A stretch of 43,146 nt of DNA. Origin: Acidimicrobiales bacterium (lineage in GTDB: Bacteria; Actinomycetota; Acidimicrobiia; Acidimicrobiales; JAHWLA01). The stretch lies in the NCBI GenBank assembly GCA_035536915.1, contig DATLNE010000051.1, forward strand, positions 1 to 43,146. Direction: 5' to 3'. The position numbers were made by a program, and so were the translations under genes. Under the pieces are notes generated by a model that was given only the letters and a program-made list of their open reading frames with translations, did no database searches and was not told the origin of the DNA. Below, one piece after another: positions 2,643-28,190 of the stretch; the stretch's first letter is position 1, and each line of letters starts with the position of its first letter.

Positions 2643-5435
2643 GTGAGCGCCCCCGTCATCCCGGCCGCCAGCCCGCTGGTCGGCCGCGACGCCGAGTTCG
2701 CCGAAGCCAGCGCGTTCGTGGCCGACCTGGTCGACACGGGCGGCGGGGCCTTCCTCCTGCGCGGGGAAGCGGGCATCGGCAAGAGCCGGTTGCTGGCCGA
2801 GCTCGCCGCCGACTGTGAGGCGGCAGGCTGGCAGGTGCTGGCCGCGTCGGCGTCCAACATCGAGAGCCAGCTGCCGTACTCCGTCTTCCTGCAGTTGGTG
2901 CGCTCGACGCCGTCCAACCAGCCGCCGCACGTCCGCGAGCAGGCCGCCCGCCTGGTCGAGCAGCTCGACGTCACCAACGACAAGCCGATGGTGGCGGCCT
3001 ACGGGGCCGCCACCCGCTACATCGACGCCATGCGCAGGCACGGCCCGACGATCCTGGTGGTCGACGACCTCGGCCACTGCGACGACGACACGGCGGCCCT
3101 GCTGACGACGCTGCTGCGCCGGTCGGCGGAGAGCCCCCTCGTCGTAGTGGGGACGGCTCGGGTGTCGATGGCCCAGCGGGGGCCGATGGCCGCCCTGCTC
3201 GACCAGCTGGCCGAGTCGAACCGCCTACGCAGGCTCGACCTCCGGCCCCTCGGCAAGCAGGCCGTCGAAGCCCTCGTGGCCGCCACCCTCGGTTCCCCGC
3301 CCGACGAACGCTTGGTCGAGGCGGTGGCGCGGTCGACGAACGGCAACCCGTTCTTCGTCACCCAGGTCCTGCTCAGCTTGCTCGAAGCCGACGCCGTCGC
3401 CGTCGAAGGCGGCCGCTCGACGTTGCGGGAGCCGGTGGCGCCCATGTCGCCCGACCGCCGCGAGGTCGTCCTGCGCCGAGTGCTGCGGGTCAGCGAGGAA
3501 GCCCGGACCGTCGCCCGGGCCGTCGCCCTGCTCGGCTCGCTCCGTTCCGACCGCTTCTCGCTGGTGGCCACGCTGGCCCAGCTCGACCTGGCCCAAGTGG
3601 CCAAGGCCATCGACGGCCTGGTGGCCAGCCAGGTGCTGGGGGAAGACGACGGCACCTTCCGCTTCAGCCACCAGTTGCTGCGCGACACCCTCTACCAGGA
3701 CATCGGCGCAGGCACGCGGTGGCGGTGGCACCAACTGGTGGCGGAGTGGCTGTCCACGCTGCCGACGACCGGGGAAGTGGCGCTGGAGTTGGCCCACCAC
3801 ACGGGCGAGACGGCGGAGGTGGGCGACCAGCAGGCCCTCGAAGTGATCGTGCGGGCGGGCGAGCTCATGGCCGAGTCGGCGCCGAGGTCGGCGGTGCCGT
3901 GGTACCACCGCGCCCTGGCGATCATGCCGGAGGACCACCCGAAGCGTGACTGGCTGTTGGGCAGGCTGGCCCGGGCGCTGCTCTTTGCGGGCCGCCCCCA
4001 CGAGGCCGTCGACGTGGGCCGCAGCGTGCTGGCCCGGGCGGGCTCCAGCGCCGACAACGCCCGTACGACGTACCTCCTCGTGGAGGCGTTGTGGGAAGCG
4101 GGCAACTTGGCCGAGGCGCAGGAACTGGTCGACCTGCTCACCGCGGTGGAGCCGTTGCCGGTGCGGTTCGTGGCCCAAGCGGCGAACCTGTTCCACGTCA
4201 CCGGCCGCTACGACGACGCCTTCGCCGCCGAGGCCCGCACCCGGGCGCTGCTCACCGAGGCGCCGCCCGTGGAGCGGGTGGTCGCGCACTGTCACCTCGG
4301 GCTCCTGTGGGCCCGTGACGGCTGGGTCTCCAAGGCGGCGGCCATCTGGCGCGAACTCGAGGAGGAGTTGGCCGACGCGCCACCGTCGACCCAGCTCGGC
4401 GCCTACTCGGTGATGAGCTTCCAAGCGGCCCTGGTCGGCTGCATCGAGCCTGCCGAGCAGTTCCAGGCTCGTGCCGACGTCCTGCTCGACGAGGCCAAGC
4501 TGCTCATGTTCGGCAACGCCTTGGCCACCGGCCGCGTGCTCACGGCCTCGCACGTCGGCGACTGGGACAGCGCCCTGCGCCTGGCCGACGACGTCATCGC
4601 CGGCGTGGACGACGAGGGGCACTCGCCCATGCAGTTCGACGCGGTACTCGCCGTGGCCGCCGACATCGAGTCGAACCGCGGCGACTGGCGCCGGGCCCGC
4701 CACCTGCTCGCCCGCTACGAGCCGCAGTCGCCTGCCACCCGGGCGCAGTGGGCGTGGACGATGGGGGGCATCGAGCTCGCCAGTGGCAGCGCGTCCGAGG
4801 CGCGGCGGCTGTTGGAGGCGGAACTGGCCGAGGGCACGGCCCGCCCTGTCGCCGAGGTCTTGCTCCGAGCCCGTTTGGCGGAGACGCTGCACGCCGCGGG
4901 CGCACTGGATGAGGCACGACGGGTGGCCGAGGAGTTGGCTGCCGTCGACGTCGACGACATGTCGTTCCCGGCCCGCACCGAGGCCCTGTGCGTGGTCGGC
5001 ACGGTGCTGGCCGATGCCGACCGCCTCACCCAGGCGGCGGCGCTGGCGCGTCGCCATCGTGCCCCGTTCGTCGAAGCCCGCGCCCAACTGGCGCTCGGCG
5101 ACCTCGGCCGCGAGCGCCTCGACGACCTGCTCGTGGCCCACGAGGCGTTCCACCGCTTGGGCGCCCAGCCGTGGCGCCGTCGTGCCGCGTCGTCGTTGCG
5201 CCGTTACGGCGTGCCCGTCCCGCGCTTTCGGGCGCCGAAGCCGTCGATCTTCACGGAGACGGAGGCGCAGATCGTCCGCCTCGTGCAGGAGGCGCGCTCG
5301 AACCGGGAGATCGCCCAGACGCTGTCGATCAGCCTCAAGACCGTGGAGTCGTACCTCACCCGCATCTACGCCAAGACGGGGTGCGCCACCCGCCTCGAGC
5401 TGGCCCGGGCGTCCGACGCCGGGCGCTTCAACTGA
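2643..5435 (+). CDS. LuxR family regulator with AAA/NACHT-like ATPase (LAL/MalT type)
   Basis: A 930-residue LAL regulator. It has an N-terminal P-loop ATPase with Walker A GEAGIGKS (residues 41-48) and Walker B ILVVDD ending at Asp141-Asp142. A long helical, TPR-like middle follows, rich in Ala/Leu/Glu. The C-terminal LuxR helix-turn-helix reads FTETEAQIVRLV...SNREIAQTLSISLKTVESYLTRIY. Such proteins activate transcription when ATP and an inducer bind. The start is taken as GTG 2643, just before the conserved PLVGRDAEF; the open frame extends further upstream but without family similarity. The gene sits among CoA-ester enzymes, so it is a plausible local regulator. Its stop overlaps the convergent gene by 8 bp. 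Confidence 0.92.
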   Translation: MSAPVIPAASPLVGRDAEFAEASAFVADLVDTGGGAFLLRGEAGIGKSRLLAELAADCEAAGWQVLAASASNIESQLPYSVFLQLVRSTPSNQPPHVREQAARLVEQLDVTNDKPMVAAYGAATRYIDAMRRHGPTILVVDDLGHCDDDTAALLTTLLRRSAESPLVVVGTARVSMAQRGPMAALLDQLAESNRLRRLDLRPLGKQAVEALVAATLGSPPDERLVEAVARSTNGNPFFVTQVLLSLLEADAVAVEGGRSTLREPVAPMSPDRREVVLRRVLRVSEEARTVARAVALLGSLRSDRFSLVATLAQLDLAQVAKAIDGLVASQVLGEDDGTFRFSHQLLRDTLYQDIGAGTRWRWHQLVAEWLSTLPTTGEVALELAHHTGETAEVGDQQALEVIVRAGELMAESAPRSAVPWYHRALAIMPEDHPKRDWLLGRLARALLFAGRPHEAVDVGRSVLARAGSSADNARTTYLLVEALWEAGNLAEAQELVDLLTAVEPLPVRFVAQAANLFHVTGRYDDAFAAEARTRALLTEAPPVERVVAHCHLGLLWARDGWVSKAAAIWRELEEELADAPPSTQLGAYSVMSFQAALVGCIEPAEQFQARADVLLDEAKLLMFGNALATGRVLTASHVGDWDSALRLADDVIAGVDDEGHSPMQFDAVLAVAADIESNRGDWRRARHLLARYEPQSPATRAQWAWTMGGIELASGSASEARRLLEAELAEGTARPVAEVLLRARLAETLHAAGALDEARRVAEELAAVDVDDMSFPARTEALCVVGTVLADADRLTQAAALARRHRAPFVEARAQLALGDLGRERLDDLLVAHEAFHRLGAQPWRRRAASSLRRYGVPVPRFRAPKPSIFTETEAQIVRLVQEARSNREIAQTLSISLKTVESYLTRIYAKTGCATRLELARASDAGRFN

Positions 5436-22000: not shown

Positions 22001-24220
22001 TCAGGGCGTCGCGGTGGTGGTGGTCGTGGTGCTGCTGGTCGTCGTCGTGGCCTCGTCCGGTGGGGGCGAGGTGGTCGACGTGGTGCTGCTGCTGCTGGTG
22101 CTCGTCGACGACGAACCGGTGGGCGTGGTCGTGCTCGTGGTGGCCACCGTGCTCGCCGTCGTGGTGGCGGGCGGTTCGTCGGCGATGAGCCCGGCGTCCG
22201 CCAAGAGCGTCACGATCTCGACCTGTACTGCCTGCACCTGCGCGTACAGCGCGGCGAGGTCGGTGGTGCCGAGGTCGAGGTCGAGCCCGTCGAGGGCGGC
22301 GTTGATCTGCGCCTGGAGGTCCTCACTCGGCATCTCCCGCAACGTGACCACAAGCTGCACGGCGAGGGCTGTGGTGGTGCAACTGATGCACCCGCCGTTG
22401 GCGGCGACGGCCACGTTCACGGGTGCCACGACGTCGGTCTGGCCCACGACGAGCACCACTTGGAACGAGACGGCGACGGTGGTGCACGCCGTGCACGAGG
22501 CCAGCGCGTAGGCCTCGTTGCGGTTGTCGACGGGGGCGCCGTCGTCGACCCAGATCAAGGCGACGGCCACGTCGTAGACGACGGTGCCGTCTTCGGTGTT
22601 GACGGCGAGTGCCTGGTTGTCGCCCTCGCCGGGCAGGTCGGGGAGGGTGAAGGGGAAGGCGACACCGAGGTCGTCGCCCTCGGTGAGGATGGCCCGGACG
22701 GTGCCGTCGTCGGCCCGGGTCACGAGCACGGTCGAGGCGGTCTTGTCGTTGCGAGGCACGAGCGCGTAGCCGCTGACCGGCTTGACGCCGGCGATGGGCT
22801 GGAAGGAGTGCTGCGCGGCGGCGCGGGTGTTCACCAAGTTGGCGAGGGTCAGGTCGTCGGCCGCGCTCACCGGCTCGTACTGGCCGCTGGGCCACCAGGC
22901 GACGAGGAGGAACAGGGCGAGCACGGCGGCGACCGCCGATGTGGCCGCCCGGGCGAACGGCCGTCCTTCGGTGCTCGTCCACACGCGGCGGGCCGAACGG
23001 CGCACCACGCGGGTGAGCATGTAGGTGGTGGCCGCCACCGGCACCACCAGGGCGGCCGTCTTGAGCAGGGCGGCGAGGGCGCCGACCACGTCGCCGTCGG
23101 CGCTGTTCGAGAGCAGGGCGCCGCCGTGTTCGCCCACGCCTTCTGCCGCGGTGGCGATGAGGCGGGGCAGCAGCAGCACGGCGCCGACGAACAGCCAGAG
23201 CAGCAGCGGCACGACGATGAGCACCCAGGCCCGCACCACCCAGCGGGCGGTGGGCCGCAGGGGTTGGGGCTTGCCCCAGTTGGCCGGGAGCATGCCCGCC
23301 AGCGTCGGCTTCATGTGCTGAAAGAGGTCGGGCACGCCGACCAGGTCGGAGAGGATGTGGTAGCCGTCGGCGCGGATGACGGGGGCGAGCTGGCGCACCA
23401 TCAACAGGTGTTGGGCGGCGACGACGAGGAGCAGGGCGTCGAGGCGCACCACGAGCCAAAGGGCGGCGACGGCGACAGCGGCGACGGCGTTGAAGTACAG
23501 CCCGCCGAGGTCGACCATCAGGCGGCCGGCGCGGGGGAGGCGGCGACTGTCGTCCACGTCGGTGTAGAAGGCGGGCCACACCATGTAGAGGCCCGCGCCC
23601 ATGGCGCCCGGGGTGGCGCCCGCCGCTCGACAGGCCGCAGCGTGGCCGAACTCGTGCCAGCCGGCCGACACCAGGATGAGGGCGAAGGCGGCAAGCAGCA
23701 GGCCGGGGGAGTCGAAGGCCTGGCGCAGGCCCGGTGCGAGCCCCTCTCGGAAGAGCACCCACCAGGTGGTGACGGCGAAGGCGAGGAGGACGGGCACCAC
23801 GACGGCCCGACGGAACAGCGGGGCGAAGGGCGCCGTCAGCCGTCGCGTCGTGTCGGGGTCGGTGACGACGACCTTCCAGCGCAGGGCCAGCAGCGGTACC
23901 GGCTTGCCGGCGGGGGGCGGCGCGCCGTCGGCGTCGCACAAGAGCCCGAGGGGGGCGAGCTTGTTGTCGAGCAGGAAGGCCACGTGCTCGGGCGCCACGT
24001 CCTTGCCGCACTGGCGGGAAAGCTCGTCGGCCAGCTCGACGAGGTCACGTCGCCCGTCCACCGCCTCCATTAGGCAGTAGAGGAGCGACGTGACCTGGAT
24101 CATCTGGCCGTCGGCACGGCGGACGACGCAGCGCGCCTCGGTGTAGCCCGAGTCGCGCAGCGCGCCCAGCAGTTCCACTCCCGGCGCCCGCGTGGGGACA
24201 CGAGCGTCGACGACGGCCAC
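22001..24220 (-). CDS. M50-type peptide zinc metalloprotease with PqqD/RRE-like domain and Thr/Ser tail
   Basis: A 739-residue membrane protein. Residues about 20-95 (GYTEARCVVRRADGQMIQVT... to LAPLGLL) have the pattern of PqqD/RiPP-recognition-element domains. A site-2-protease-like membrane core follows, with zinc motif HEFGH (189-193) and the third ligand in RADGYHILSDL (Asp285), as in YydH-type 'peptide zinc metalloproteases'. More helices extend to about 445. An extracytoplasmic domain then carries two CxxC pairs (Cys576/579 and 611/614), and a Thr/Ser/Pro tail runs from about 683. GTG 24220 lies 6 bp after the stop of the repeat-protein gene, so the two are coupled. It likely cleaves and/or exports that partner. 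Confidence 0.9.
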   Translation of the reverse strand: MAVVDARVPTRAPGVELLGALRDSGYTEARCVVRRADGQMIQVTSLLYCLMEAVDGRRDLVELADELSRQCGKDVAPEHVAFLLDNKLAPLGLLCDADGAPPPAGKPVPLLALRWKVVVTDPDTTRRLTAPFAPLFRRAVVVPVLLAFAVTTWWVLFREGLAPGLRQAFDSPGLLLAAFALILVSAGWHEFGHAAACRAAGATPGAMGAGLYMVWPAFYTDVDDSRRLPRAGRLMVDLGGLYFNAVAAVAVAALWLVVRLDALLLVVAAQHLLMVRQLAPVIRADGYHILSDLVGVPDLFQHMKPTLAGMLPANWGKPQPLRPTARWVVRAWVLIVVPLLLWLFVGAVLLLPRLIATAAEGVGEHGGALLSNSADGDVVGALAALLKTAALVVPVAATTYMLTRVVRRSARRVWTSTEGRPFARAATSAVAAVLALFLLVAWWPSGQYEPVSAADDLTLANLVNTRAAAQHSFQPIAGVKPVSGYALVPRNDKTASTVLVTRADDGTVRAILTEGDDLGVAFPFTLPDLPGEGDNQALAVNTEDGTVVYDVAVALIWVDDGAPVDNRNEAYALASCTACTTVAVSFQVVLVVGQTDVVAPVNVAVAANGGCISCTTTALAVQLVVTLREMPSEDLQAQINAALDGLDLDLGTTDLAALYAQVQAVQVEIVTLLADAGLIADEPPATTTASTVATTSTTTPTGSSSTSTSSSSTTSTTSPPPDEATTTTSSTTTTTTATP

Positions 24221-24226
24221 GGCCCG

Positions 24227-24865
24227 CTACTGCGTGATCTCGGAGTCCTGGTCGGCGGTCGCCTCTGCCGACACGCCGTCGAGGTCCTGGTTGATGATCG
24301 CCGTCTGCTGGGCCACCGCCGTGGCGCTGGAGTCGATGGAGGCGACGTTGGCGGCCACCGCGGCATCGATCGGCGCGGCGATGTTGGCGTTGGCGGCGAT
24401 CGCCCCGGCGATGGGGGCGGCGGCGTCGACGTCGGCGTCGATGTTCACGTCGATGTCGAGCAGGTTGCCCGCCGCGGTCAGGTCGCCTGTGGCGATCGAG
24501 CCGCCGTCGGTCGTGCCGTCTGTCGTGTCGTCGCCGCCGACGGTGTCGTCGGACTGGTCGATGACCGAGGTCTGCGGCGCCTCGGCGATGGCATCGCCCG
24601 ACTGCGTCTGGTCGATCATCACGGCCTGGTCGGCCACCGCGGTGGCGTCGGAGCCGATGGAGAGGATGTTGGCCGCCGCCGCGGCGTCGATCGGAGCGGC
24701 CACGTTCAGGTTGGCGGCCACGGCCAAGTCGATGGGCGCCGCCAAGTCGAGCGCCAGGTCGACATCGGCGTCGAGGTCGAGCAGCGACATGACCTCCTTC
24801 GTGGGCAGTGCTGTCGCGTCCTCAGCCGCCAGGTCCTCTTCCGACAGGCGTTCCCGGTCACTCAT
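24227..24865 (-). CDS. Two-repeat Ala/Asp/Ile-rich protein, putative substrate of the M50 protease
   Basis: A 212-residue acidic protein with no signal peptide. A charged N-terminal segment ends in LPTKEVMSLL (20-29) and looks like a leader. Two related blocks follow (about 31-104 and 137-212), joined by an Asp/Thr/Gly linker. Each block contains AAPID..(A)VAAN twice, then LSIGSDATAVADQ or ASIDSSATAVAQQ, then a run of I-x-Q motifs (VIDQ, IINQ, EITQ). There is one Met-rich leader and no Cys or Trp. This composition suggests a beta-solenoid or self-assembling fibre, by inference only. ATG 24865 follows GAGGAG with 7-base spacing. It is first in an operon with the M50 protease. Confidence 0.8.
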   Translation of the reverse strand: MSDRERLSEEDLAAEDATALPTKEVMSLLDLDADVDLALDLAAPIDLAVAANLNVAAPIDAAAAANILSIGSDATAVADQAVMIDQTQSGDAIAEAPQTSVIDQSDDTVGGDDTTDGTTDGGSIATGDLTAAGNLLDIDVNIDADVDAAAPIAGAIAANANIAAPIDAAVAANVASIDSSATAVAQQTAIINQDLDGVSAEATADQDSEITQ

Positions 24866-25653: not shown

Positions 25654-26541
25654 TCAGCCCACGGCGTCGTGCGCGGGCAGCGGGGCCCGGCGTGCCGCCG
25701 CGGCCAGGCGCAGCGCCATCACGGCCCAGCCGGCGGCGAGCAGCACCGACGCCGCGGCCAGGATTGAGGGCCGGACACCGAGGACGCCGGCCAGCGTGCG
25801 GGCGTTGGTGGCCACGATGAACCCGCCGATGGCGGTGCCCAACGTGCGCTGGTCGAGGCGCTGGGTGAGCCAGGCGGCGAACGGCGCCGCCACGGAACCG
25901 CCGAGCAGCAGGGCACCCACGAGGACGGGGTCGATCTGCTTCCACGGCAGCGCGATCAGGAACCCGACGCTGGCGCCGAGGGACACCAGGAACTCGCTGG
26001 CCGACACCGTGCCGATCACCCGGCGGGCCTCCATCCGCCCGGCGGCCAGCAGGGTCGACGTGCCCACGGGCCCCCAGCCCCCGCCGCCCGCGGCGTCGAG
26101 GAACCCGGCGCCGGCACCGAGGGCGGCGAAGAAGCGCTTCCCGTGCGGACGGTTGGCGACGACTTCGCCGACGCTGCGCCCCGAGCGCGAGCGCACCAGG
26201 ACGTAGACGCCCAGGACGGCGAGGACGACGGCCACCCACGGCTTGGCCGTGTCGGCCGACAGCGAGCTCAGGACGGTGGCGCCTAGGAAGGCACCGAAGG
26301 CGCCGGGGACGGCCATCCACCGCAGGGCTCGCCAGTCCACATTGCCGAAGCGATGGTGCGCAACGCCCGACACCAGAGACGTTCCCACCTCGGCCAGGTG
26401 GACGCTGGCCGATGCCAACGCCGCCGCCGTGCCCGAGGTGACGAGGAAGGAGGTCGAGGTGACGCCGTAGCCCATCCCCAGCGAGCCGTCGACGAGCTGG
26501 GCCACCAACCCGGCAAGACTGAAGGTGAGAAGGCGGCGCAC
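25654..26541 (-). CDS. TSUP family (TauE/SafE) membrane transporter
   Basis: A 295-residue polytopic membrane protein. The GLVAQLVDGSLGMGYGVTST block near the N-terminus and AGFLDAAGGGGWGP in the middle are the paired signature repeats of the TSUP/TauE/SafE family, which exports or imports sulfite, sulfonates or related anions. About eight hydrophobic segments are present. GTG 26541 follows GGAGG with 4-5 base spacing. The promoter region carries a three-copy half-site cluster, so expression is likely under tight control. No sulfur-metabolism gene is nearby to fix the substrate. Confidence 0.92.
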   Translation of the reverse strand: MRRLLTFSLAGLVAQLVDGSLGMGYGVTSTSFLVTSGTAAALASASVHLAEVGTSLVSGVAHHRFGNVDWRALRWMAVPGAFGAFLGATVLSSLSADTAKPWVAVVLAVLGVYVLVRSRSGRSVGEVVANRPHGKRFFAALGAGAGFLDAAGGGGWGPVGTSTLLAAGRMEARRVIGTVSASEFLVSLGASVGFLIALPWKQIDPVLVGALLLGGSVAAPFAAWLTQRLDQRTLGTAIGGFIVATNARTLAGVLGVRPSILAAASVLLAAGWAVMALRLAAAARRAPLPAHDAVG

Positions 26542-26715: not shown

Positions 26716-27588
26716 TCATCCTCCGGAGCTGTCCTGCTCGGCTAACGCCGTCGCCCAGAAGTCGCGGAGGACTTCCATGGCTCGTTCGAGCGACTTTGCT
26801 GTGATGTCCAGATCGTCGGCAAGCGCTGCGTAGGCCCGCTCCCAGTCGCCCGACGGGTCCGGAATGCCGTCGGGTACGGAATGCGTGCCGCGGACGTCGA
26901 AGACGTGCCGAACCCGGGCGACCAGGTGGCTGTCGGCGACCAGGCCGTCCTCGATCAGCAGCATGAGGTCGGGCAGATCGCGCACCCGCGAGCTCGGCCT
27001 GTCCCGGTAGACGCGGGTGAGGGCGTGCAGTTTCTCGGCAAAGTGCTGGCGGCGGTCGACGACCTCCACGTCCCTGGTCGGCATCCCTGCAAAGGCCAAT
27101 GTCCCCGGCAAGCTGAGCCGCTCGGTACCGGTGATTTCTTCGCGTCGGGCGACGACATCGAGCCGGATGGCGGCGAACTGCCGACCGGCGAGCCCGGCCT
27201 CGACGGTGAAACGCCAGCCTGGACGCCCCGCTTCGTCGACCTGCAGCGGCGTCGGCGGGCTTACTGCGAACGCAAAGCCGTCATGGTCCGGATCGGTCGC
27301 CAACGACTCGATCAACAGGTCGCGGACGTCTTCGGAGTCGGCGAGTTGGCCACGCAGCGCAAGGTCGAGGTCGCGGGTGGCGCGGGCCCGGTCATGGAGG
27401 CGGAACTCGACGGCCATCCCGCCCTTCAGGATCCACCGTCCGGGCGCCGCCGACTCGAGTCGAACGAGGAGCCGCTCGACGACGGCGCGTCGCCGAAGTC
27501 GCTGGAGGTCCACGCCGGTTTTCGCAGCCTGGTTCCTGAGACGGTCTTCCAGCGCGGCTCGTAGGGCCTGTGGCGTCTCGTAGGGCAT
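26716..27588 (-). CDS. AbiEii-family nucleotidyltransferase toxin
   Basis: A 290-residue protein of the AbiEii/AbiGii toxin family. Motif I reads LKGGMAVEFRL (54-64), followed by the ATRDLDLAL block (70-78) with Asp73 and Asp75 as probable metal ligands of a DNA-polymerase-beta-like nucleotidyltransferase. The later EKLHALTR segment and the acidic RDLPDLMLLI helix are also typical. Family members add nucleotides to tRNA acceptor ends or act as GTP-dependent toxins. Its ATG overlaps the antitoxin stop by one base (TAATG). Length is normal and the motifs are intact. Confidence 0.92.
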   Translation of the reverse strand: MPYETPQALRAALEDRLRNQAAKTGVDLQRLRRRAVVERLLVRLESAAPGRWILKGGMAVEFRLHDRARATRDLDLALRGQLADSEDVRDLLIESLATDPDHDGFAFAVSPPTPLQVDEAGRPGWRFTVEAGLAGRQFAAIRLDVVARREEITGTERLSLPGTLAFAGMPTRDVEVVDRRQHFAEKLHALTRVYRDRPSSRVRDLPDLMLLIEDGLVADSHLVARVRHVFDVRGTHSVPDGIPDPSGDWERAYAALADDLDITAKSLERAMEVLRDFWATALAEQDSSGG

Positions 27589-28181
27589 TAGGACGCTCTC
27601 GCCAGTGTCCGCTCGATTCTCAGCGCGGCGCGGTCGCCGAACTCATCGGCACGAGCGAGAAGCATCCGTCGGGTGAACAGCCCGCGCTCCAGTGCCTCTG
27701 CGACGACGGTGGCGAGTTGGTCGAGGTCGAGGTCACCGTTGGCTATGTCGAGGACCGAGCGCAGGGGGGCGGTGATTCGGAAGCCTTCCCATTGCTGCGT
27801 GTCGGCCTCCGGGACTTCTCCTCGGTGCAGGACGACGCCCTCGGCTCGCTTCCGGAAGCCGCGAGGAACGGTCAGGTGCACCTGGGCTGGGTTGAGGTCC
27901 CCGAGGTCGTGTACCGAAAGCGCCGTAGCGTGCGAGACGACGGCCCTGCCTCGACTCCACTGGCTCCAGCGGATCAGGTCCTCGTGCTCGGTGACGGGCC
28001 ATTCGGGGAGGCGAAAAAGGCCGCGATCGATCCGCTGCCAGTTCCCTTGAGCGACATGGTACGTCTGTGCTTGGTACGGGTAGCCGGCATCGAGCGCCTG
28101 CGCCGCGGTGAAGTAGCCGCCCTGTGTTCTTGCGACGTTGGACATCCGCCGACGGCGTGCCTGACGGTCGCCTTCACCCAT
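27588..28181 (-). CDS. AbiEi-family antitoxin/transcriptional regulator
   Basis: A 197-residue protein. N-terminal winged-helix region: ARTQGGYFTAAQALDAGY, then YHVAQGNWQRIDRGLFRLP. The C-terminal AbiEi-type domain contains AVVSHATALSVHDLGD, VHLTVPRG and APLRSVLDIAN. These proteins bind their own promoter and neutralise the paired AbiEii toxin, encoded next with a one-base overlap. ATG 28181 is chosen; GTG 28184 and ATG 28145 are in-frame alternatives, the last matching the point where family similarity begins. A perfect palindrome sits 9 bp upstream. Confidence 0.88.
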   Translation of the reverse strand: MGEGDRQARRRRMSNVARTQGGYFTAAQALDAGYPYQAQTYHVAQGNWQRIDRGLFRLPEWPVTEHEDLIRWSQWSRGRAVVSHATALSVHDLGDLNPAQVHLTVPRGFRKRAEGVVLHRGEVPEADTQQWEGFRITAPLRSVLDIANGDLDLDQLATVVAEALERGLFTRRMLLARADEFGDRAALRIERTLARAS

Positions 28182-28190
28182 CACACTAAC

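Follow-up and report, generated by a model that had tools for sequence, protein, structure and literature searches.

Among the closest described counterparts of the gene pair considered here are two peptide maturation systems that employ an intramembrane protease. In daptide biosynthesis, a leader with the motif ELExMEAP, in precursors ending in an invariant C-terminal Thr, is removed by an intramembrane peptidase that depends on a RiPP recognition element (RRE; RiPP, ribosomally synthesised and post-translationally modified peptide) (PMC10036551), and in epipeptide production the M50 protease EpeP is, according to a review, sufficient and is thought to cleave and export the product (PMC10885120). 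The pair analysed here lies in a 43,146-nucleotide stretch of an Acidimicrobiales bacterium (contig DATLNE010000051.1, positions 1 to 43,146 of the forward strand; hereafter the window) and consists of P0001, a leader-bearing repeat protein, and P0002, a membrane metalloprotease with an RRE fused in front. It appears to form a previously undescribed system for maturing and exporting peptides, the product of which is possibly surface material. No description of this precursor-protease family was found in Pfam, NCBIfam or the open-licence literature; among the open-licence papers searched, RRE-fused site-2 proteases were treated only in the daptide work (PMC10036551), and the RRE surveys that were checked mentioned no M50 protease.

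The daptide leader protease MpaP (NF041824) has the same RRE in front of an intramembrane site-2 protease, and its precursors are likewise often present in several copies nearby. However, P0002 scored 94.7 bits against NF041824 (daptide_HExxH), within a range of 77-110 bits for the family as a whole and below the cut-off of 300, the leader reads L-P-x-R-x-x-M-S (LPTKEVMS in the window) instead of ELExMEAP, no invariant C-terminal Thr is present, and none of the oxidative decarboxylase, aminotransferase and methyltransferase of a daptide cluster is encoded among the window neighbours. In one genome (G155), a true daptide locus, which served as positive control (406.5 bits) and has ABC genes and a precursor with the leader ELETMEAP and a terminal Thr, is accompanied by a locus of the present family (101 bits); because the two coexist as separate loci they were taken to be distinct systems. 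The epipeptide protease YydH/LiaK/EpeP (NF058609), with which P0002 had been compared in the initial annotation of this DNA, is an M50 protease beside a peptide precursor that has been proposed to cleave and export; this juxtaposition is shared, whereas the likeness to YydH itself is distant (34.7 bits, cut-off 225), the RRE is fused in front here, and no radical-SAM epimerase was seen near the window pair. Membership of both families was rejected, as the scores fall below the curated cut-offs and defining features are missing.

With RiPP systems in general the family shares a conserved leader, an RRE domain, a variable core and a dedicated protease, but its precursors reach 210-345 aa and no modification enzyme is conserved nearby. 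In an all-against-all comparison of the neighbours at 40 loci, no enzyme family besides the protease recurred in most loci, an enzyme encoded elsewhere being possible, and neither an exporter nor a resistance gene was conserved. The family was therefore not filed as a RiPP, although its leader processing is RiPP-like. Curli, Fap and chaplin surface amyloids share a repeated, Asn/Gln-containing beta-type motif with the precursors, but the window protein matches none of these families, has no signal peptide and would be delivered by a different machine.

The segment LPTKEVMSLL (residues 20-29 of P0001) had been noted at the outset as leader-like and as preceding two acidic repeat blocks, and both observations held. 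When 14 divergent precursors were aligned, mean leader identity was 0.38, compared with at most 0.23 in 1000 shuffles that kept the LP anchor and 0.20 for the aligned cores, so that the conserved leader anticipated for the N-termini of the repeat proteins was recovered. The cores range from an N-x-A-x-A-x-N...A-x-A-x-Q type to hydrophobic and chaplin-like ones, those at loci L135-L137 being short, hydrophobic and Gly-rich. A conserved leader followed by a variable core is the pattern expected if the RRE reads the leader and not the core, as in RiPP systems. The two blocks of P0001 are a true duplication (local score 188 versus a maximum of 89 in 2000 shuffles), visible also at the DNA level (177 nt, 74% identity), and the approximately 184 residues after the leader contain 33 Asp/Glu and no Lys/Arg, aromatic residue, His or Cys, up to the C-terminal end ...EITQ. 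No match to P0001 was found in Pfam at E up to 1, or to profile A2 among PDB sequences at E up to 10, and no precursor, from the window or its relatives, scored above a family cut-off in Pfam or NCBIfam. A short-precursor profile built from other genomes without P0001 nevertheless matched P0001 three times (E 1.7e-7 to 4.9e-7). The size of the window protein had appeared too large for a RiPP precursor; this puzzle is resolved because the relatives carry tandem precursors of 60-80 aa, of which the window protein is the two-block version.

A structure of P0002 predicted with AlphaFold2 (AF2) shows a beta-beta-beta-alpha-alpha-alpha N-terminal domain at residues 16-88, followed by a bundle of membrane helices, of which the predicted helix 172-199 contains HEFGH (residues 189-193). 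Structural alignment with VIA-align placed residues 6-98 on the lasso-peptide RRE TbiB1 in its leader complex (5v1u; Z 8.2, 82/86 residues) and also on MibB (5ehk), TruD (4bs9) and LynD (4v1v) with Z of 6.7-7.9. A Z near 8 is modest, but the predicted RRE fold is supported by coverage of the whole domain, by several independent RRE structures and by the fit of element order and length. Failure of this domain to model as PqqD/RRE had been named as grounds for abandoning the assignment, which thus withstood the comparison. Residues 169-298 aligned with RseP (7w6y, Z 8.3) and SpoIVFB (8vjl, Z 7.9), and the HExxH in a predicted transmembrane helix together with a distal Asp-Gly motif (R283-x-D285-G286) points to a site-2 protease. 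The catalytic residues H189, E190, H193, R283, D285 and G286, which include the HEFGH active site already pointed out, and the RRE residues R35, D37, G19 and G25 are conserved in 31/31 homologues.

Distribution was assessed in samples of 296 genomes from the phylum and 148 from the order to which the window belongs. The two genes accompany each other in many Actinobacteria and in some Chloroflexi; in a first scan, a repeat or short leader-bearing gene lay directly upstream of the protease in 10/10 relatives (Frankiales, Solirubrobacter, Thermoleophilia, Streptosporangiaceae and Chloroflexi; metagenome-assembled genomes or strains). The precursor profile matched 10 of the 148 and 17 of the 296 genomes, the RRE profile (RRE-M50) matched 22 of the 296, and the two were found together in 16 (Fisher p ~1e-20), which bears out the co-occurrence that the initial annotation had put forward as a check. 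In the seventeenth precursor genome, which has no protease match, the contig ends at the locus, and all six protease genomes without a profile-detected precursor have a short open reading frame directly upstream with the same leader and a different core. Homologous proteases lacking the neighbour would have told against the pairing; a leader-bearing neighbour was almost always present. Two architectures were distinguished: in 16 loci, including the window, one long precursor (209-345 aa) precedes a protease carrying the C-terminal domain described below, and in approximately 15 loci mostly short precursors lie near a protease without it, the domain being a separate protein. Short-precursor loci hold 1-4 tandem copies of 60-80 aa, with three or four upstream peptides of 61-82 aa at L010 and L011 (Chloroflexi) and in several genomes of the own order (L014 and L015). 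An M50 protease with a cyclic-nucleotide domain (G004, L065) is more distant and differently built and was left out of the family.

The initial annotation did not include a C-terminal extracytoplasmic domain of P0002 with two CxxC motifs (the C-domain). It is fused to the protease in the 16 loci of the first architecture and encoded separately, usually with a signal peptide, in the approximately 15 of the second (about half), and sequence analysis places it outside the cytoplasm in the relatives. Where the core is of another type and the flanks are complete, the locus lacks it. The C-domain and the precursor core share a motif: comparison with hhalign gave a score of 26.9, whereas the best of 300 column shuffles reached 17.3 and the best of 300 alternation-keeping shuffles 25.2, so that the observed score lies above all 600. 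Two internal sequence repeats are supported (R1-R2, 1/2000 shuffles), and a third was rejected since the likeness of the first repeat to the other two does not exceed chance. The shared motif suggests that, beyond the membrane, the C-domain may interact with the product. Secreted C-domain proteins at L063, L089 and L094 end in long Ser/Thr/Pro tails, and at L094 ribosomal-protein genes lie between the C-domain gene and the protease. Please refer to Table 1 for the coordinates of all features of the pair.

Table 1. Positions in the window of the two genes and of the segments recognised in their products.
Feature	Position	Strand	Basis or remark
Precursor P0001, leader-bearing two-block repeat protein, 212 aa	24227..24865	(-)	Open reading frame, ATG at 24865, stop at 24227
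Leader segment EEDLAAEDATALPTKEVMS, residues 9-27	24785..24841	(-)	Matches family leader E-[LI]-x-x-[EQ]-x-[AG]-x-x-L-P-x-[RK]-x-x-[ML]-[SA]
Repeat block 1, residues 29-104: APIDLAVAANLNVAAPIDAAAAANILS then DATAVADQ..MIDQ..GDAIAEAPQTSVIDQ	24554..24781	(-)	Internal duplication score
Repeat block 2, residues 135-212: AAPIAGAIAANANIAAPIDAAVAANVAS then SATAVAQQ..IINQ..VSAEATADQDSEITQ	24230..24463	(-)	Internal duplication; DNA-level repeat
Protease P0002, RRE-fused intramembrane metalloprotease with C-terminal beta-repeat domain, 739 aa	22001..24220	(-)	Open reading frame, GTG start
RRE domain, residues 6-98	23927..24205	(-)	Predicted beta3-alpha3, pLDDT (predicted local distance difference test) 65-90; structural alignment; conserved residues
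Site-2-protease catalytic core, residues 169-298	23327..23716	(-)	HEFGH 23642-23656, RADGY 23360-23374
C-terminal extracytoplasmic domain, residues 533-680	22181..22624	(-)	Three predicted beta-hairpins, then two helices (AF2)
CxxC motifs of the C-domain	22484-22498 (in SCTAC), 22379-22393 (in GCISC)	(-)	Sequence
Thr/Ser/Pro-rich low-complexity tail	22004..22177	(-)	Seen directly; pLDDT <50; in nearly all homologues

Taken together, the pair is likely to be a leader-guided peptide maturation module, in which an RRE guides the intramembrane maturation of unmodified peptides. The precursor, which lacks a signal peptide, would be synthesised in the cytoplasm, and the RRE at the cytoplasmic N-terminus of the membrane protease would bind the conserved leader E-L-x-x-E/Q...L-P-x-R/K-x-x-M-S, whereupon the site-2-protease core would cut near the end of the leader. 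Since no conserved neighbour is an exporter, the protease is probably also what takes the product into or across the membrane. Once freed, the core, which lacks basic residues, is rich in Ala, Asn, Gln and Asp and carries N-x-A-x-A-x-N...A-x-A-x-Q repeats, would meet the extracytoplasmic C-domain with the same motif; at the cell surface this domain may accept the core, act as its chaperone or nucleate it. Display or assembly of the product at the cell surface is plausible. The candidate maturation and export system proposed in the initial annotation is supported by the RRE fold and by the leader-bearing neighbour; the surface polymer or fibre that it had named as the product was inferred. Several points weigh against the module as described. 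The AF2 model of the precursor (pLDDT 39.6) is uninformative and was not used, the Pfam M50 model PF02163 scored 15.4 bits, below its gathering cut-off of 27.2, with the fold supported by structural alignment, and protease and precursors are not on the same contig in G306 (L138 and L093). The likeness between C-domain and core could also partly reflect a shared low-complexity beta composition, given that one alternation-keeping shuffle came close to the observed score.

In a more specific and tentative form of this explanation, the mature peptides would be subunits of a curli-, Fap- or chaplin-like surface fibre or coat, with the protease C-domain, or a secreted C-domain protein together with a leaderless paralogue elsewhere, as its anchor or nucleator. 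The regular N/A/Q motif, the beta structure predicted in the C-domain hairpins and the motif common to C-domain and core are consistent with such a fibre, and the presence of the C-domain tracks the N/A/Q-type core. Many short-precursor loci also have beside them a small leaderless gene with a core-related motif (MRIRKV...NVAGxIxAVVAANV...SSRQ.IVQR.G; L010 1557-1817, L090 6607-6897, L091 7740-7988, L089, L088, L096 and L138), possibly a minor or nucleating subunit. A partner sharing the motif of its subunit recalls CsgB and CsgA of curli. The chaplin model ChpA-C (PF03777) matched the core of a relative (L103) weakly, at 15.4 bits (E 0.017) with a cut-off of 21, but not the window protein, which has no significant match to a curli, Fap or chaplin family either. 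The low pLDDT of the precursor likewise gives no confident repeat structure, and a Foldseek search with the protease returned no row at E <= 0.001; its FapC row (E 0.29) is not significant and was not used as evidence. Somewhat more doubtful still is that the pair represents a new route to a surface amyloid or coat, in which the RRE-guided protease would free unmodified beta-repeat subunits and its own C-domain, bearing the same motif, would nucleate or hold them.

The main alternative to a fibre or coat is that the products are unmodified bacteriocin-like peptides or peptides of contact-dependent competition, the C-domain being an immunity or receptor protein. The several precursor paralogues per locus with diverging cores and the hydrophobic Gly-rich cores at L135-L137 would fit this, as would the maturation of known antimicrobial peptides by intramembrane proteases (PMC10885120). 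However, the window core is long, strongly acidic and polar and has no cationic stretch, the 40-locus comparison gave no conserved exporter or resistance gene, and a PADLOC defence search gave 0 matches, so that this alternative was judged unlikely. Regulated intramembrane proteolysis, with the repeat protein as an anchor or sensor whose cleavage signals as that of pro-sigma-K by SpoIVFB does, would accord with the resemblance of the protease core to SpoIVFB and RseP but is highly improbable, as the substrates have neither a DNA-binding nor a sigma domain, are frequently only 60-80 aa long and multicopy, and combine a conserved leader with a variable core.

The protease gene lies downstream of the precursor gene, 6 bases separating the precursor stop from the protease GTG, and a ribosome-site-like GAGGAG directly precedes the precursor ATG at 24865. 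The coordinates originally assigned to the repeat and protease reading frames (24865-24227 and 24220-22001) were exact. Long (+) strand reading frames across the pair (e.g. 22460-24073) look like by-products of high-GC coding and were not counted as genes. The neighbouring window genes (cupin, enoyl-CoA hydratase, ArsR-type regulator, glyoxalase, TauE and AbiE) are unrelated to the pair; a type IV toxin-antitoxin pair (AbiEii toxin, AbiEi antitoxin) lies at 26716-28184 (-), separated from the precursor region by a TauE/SafE permease gene (25654-26541). On another contig of the same genome (L061; G000:C36, 3145-3586), two tiny tandem reading frames look like decayed precursors, one having a core (SNAAAALDALSDDSVAIAEAAQ) without the LP motif and the other a leader (EELPDNEPM) without a core, and no protease is nearby. 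At L056 (G010, 4261-4491), three precursors lie upstream of a protease frame that is open for 95 aa and ends within the RRE region; the gene may be naturally truncated or a pseudogene, or the sequence may contain an error. A precursor at L096 (2989-3531 (-)) contains the core twice, with an acidic Asn/Asp/Glu-rich tail (NNFIEQNNEQDNFEDRDED) after each copy, and the protease of that locus ends in Gly-Tyr-Asp-Ser repeats. LuxR-type response regulators, possible regulators of the pair, flank it on both sides at L136 and L137.

If the proposed module is correct, processing guided by a leader and an RRE would reach beyond small natural products and take in repeat substrates of protein size, and a function would be given to an uncharacterised family present in approximately 6-7% of the sampled species of the phylum. 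The family would also offer a simple system, of two or three genes, for testing directly whether one site-2 protease both matures and exports its product, as has so far been proposed only for epipeptides, and the motif that the protease has in common with its substrate gives a specific, testable clue to an acceptor or nucleator function. Should the amyloid or coat form hold, the pair would be an assembly machine that applies the leader logic of RiPPs to a structural protein rather than to a small natural product.
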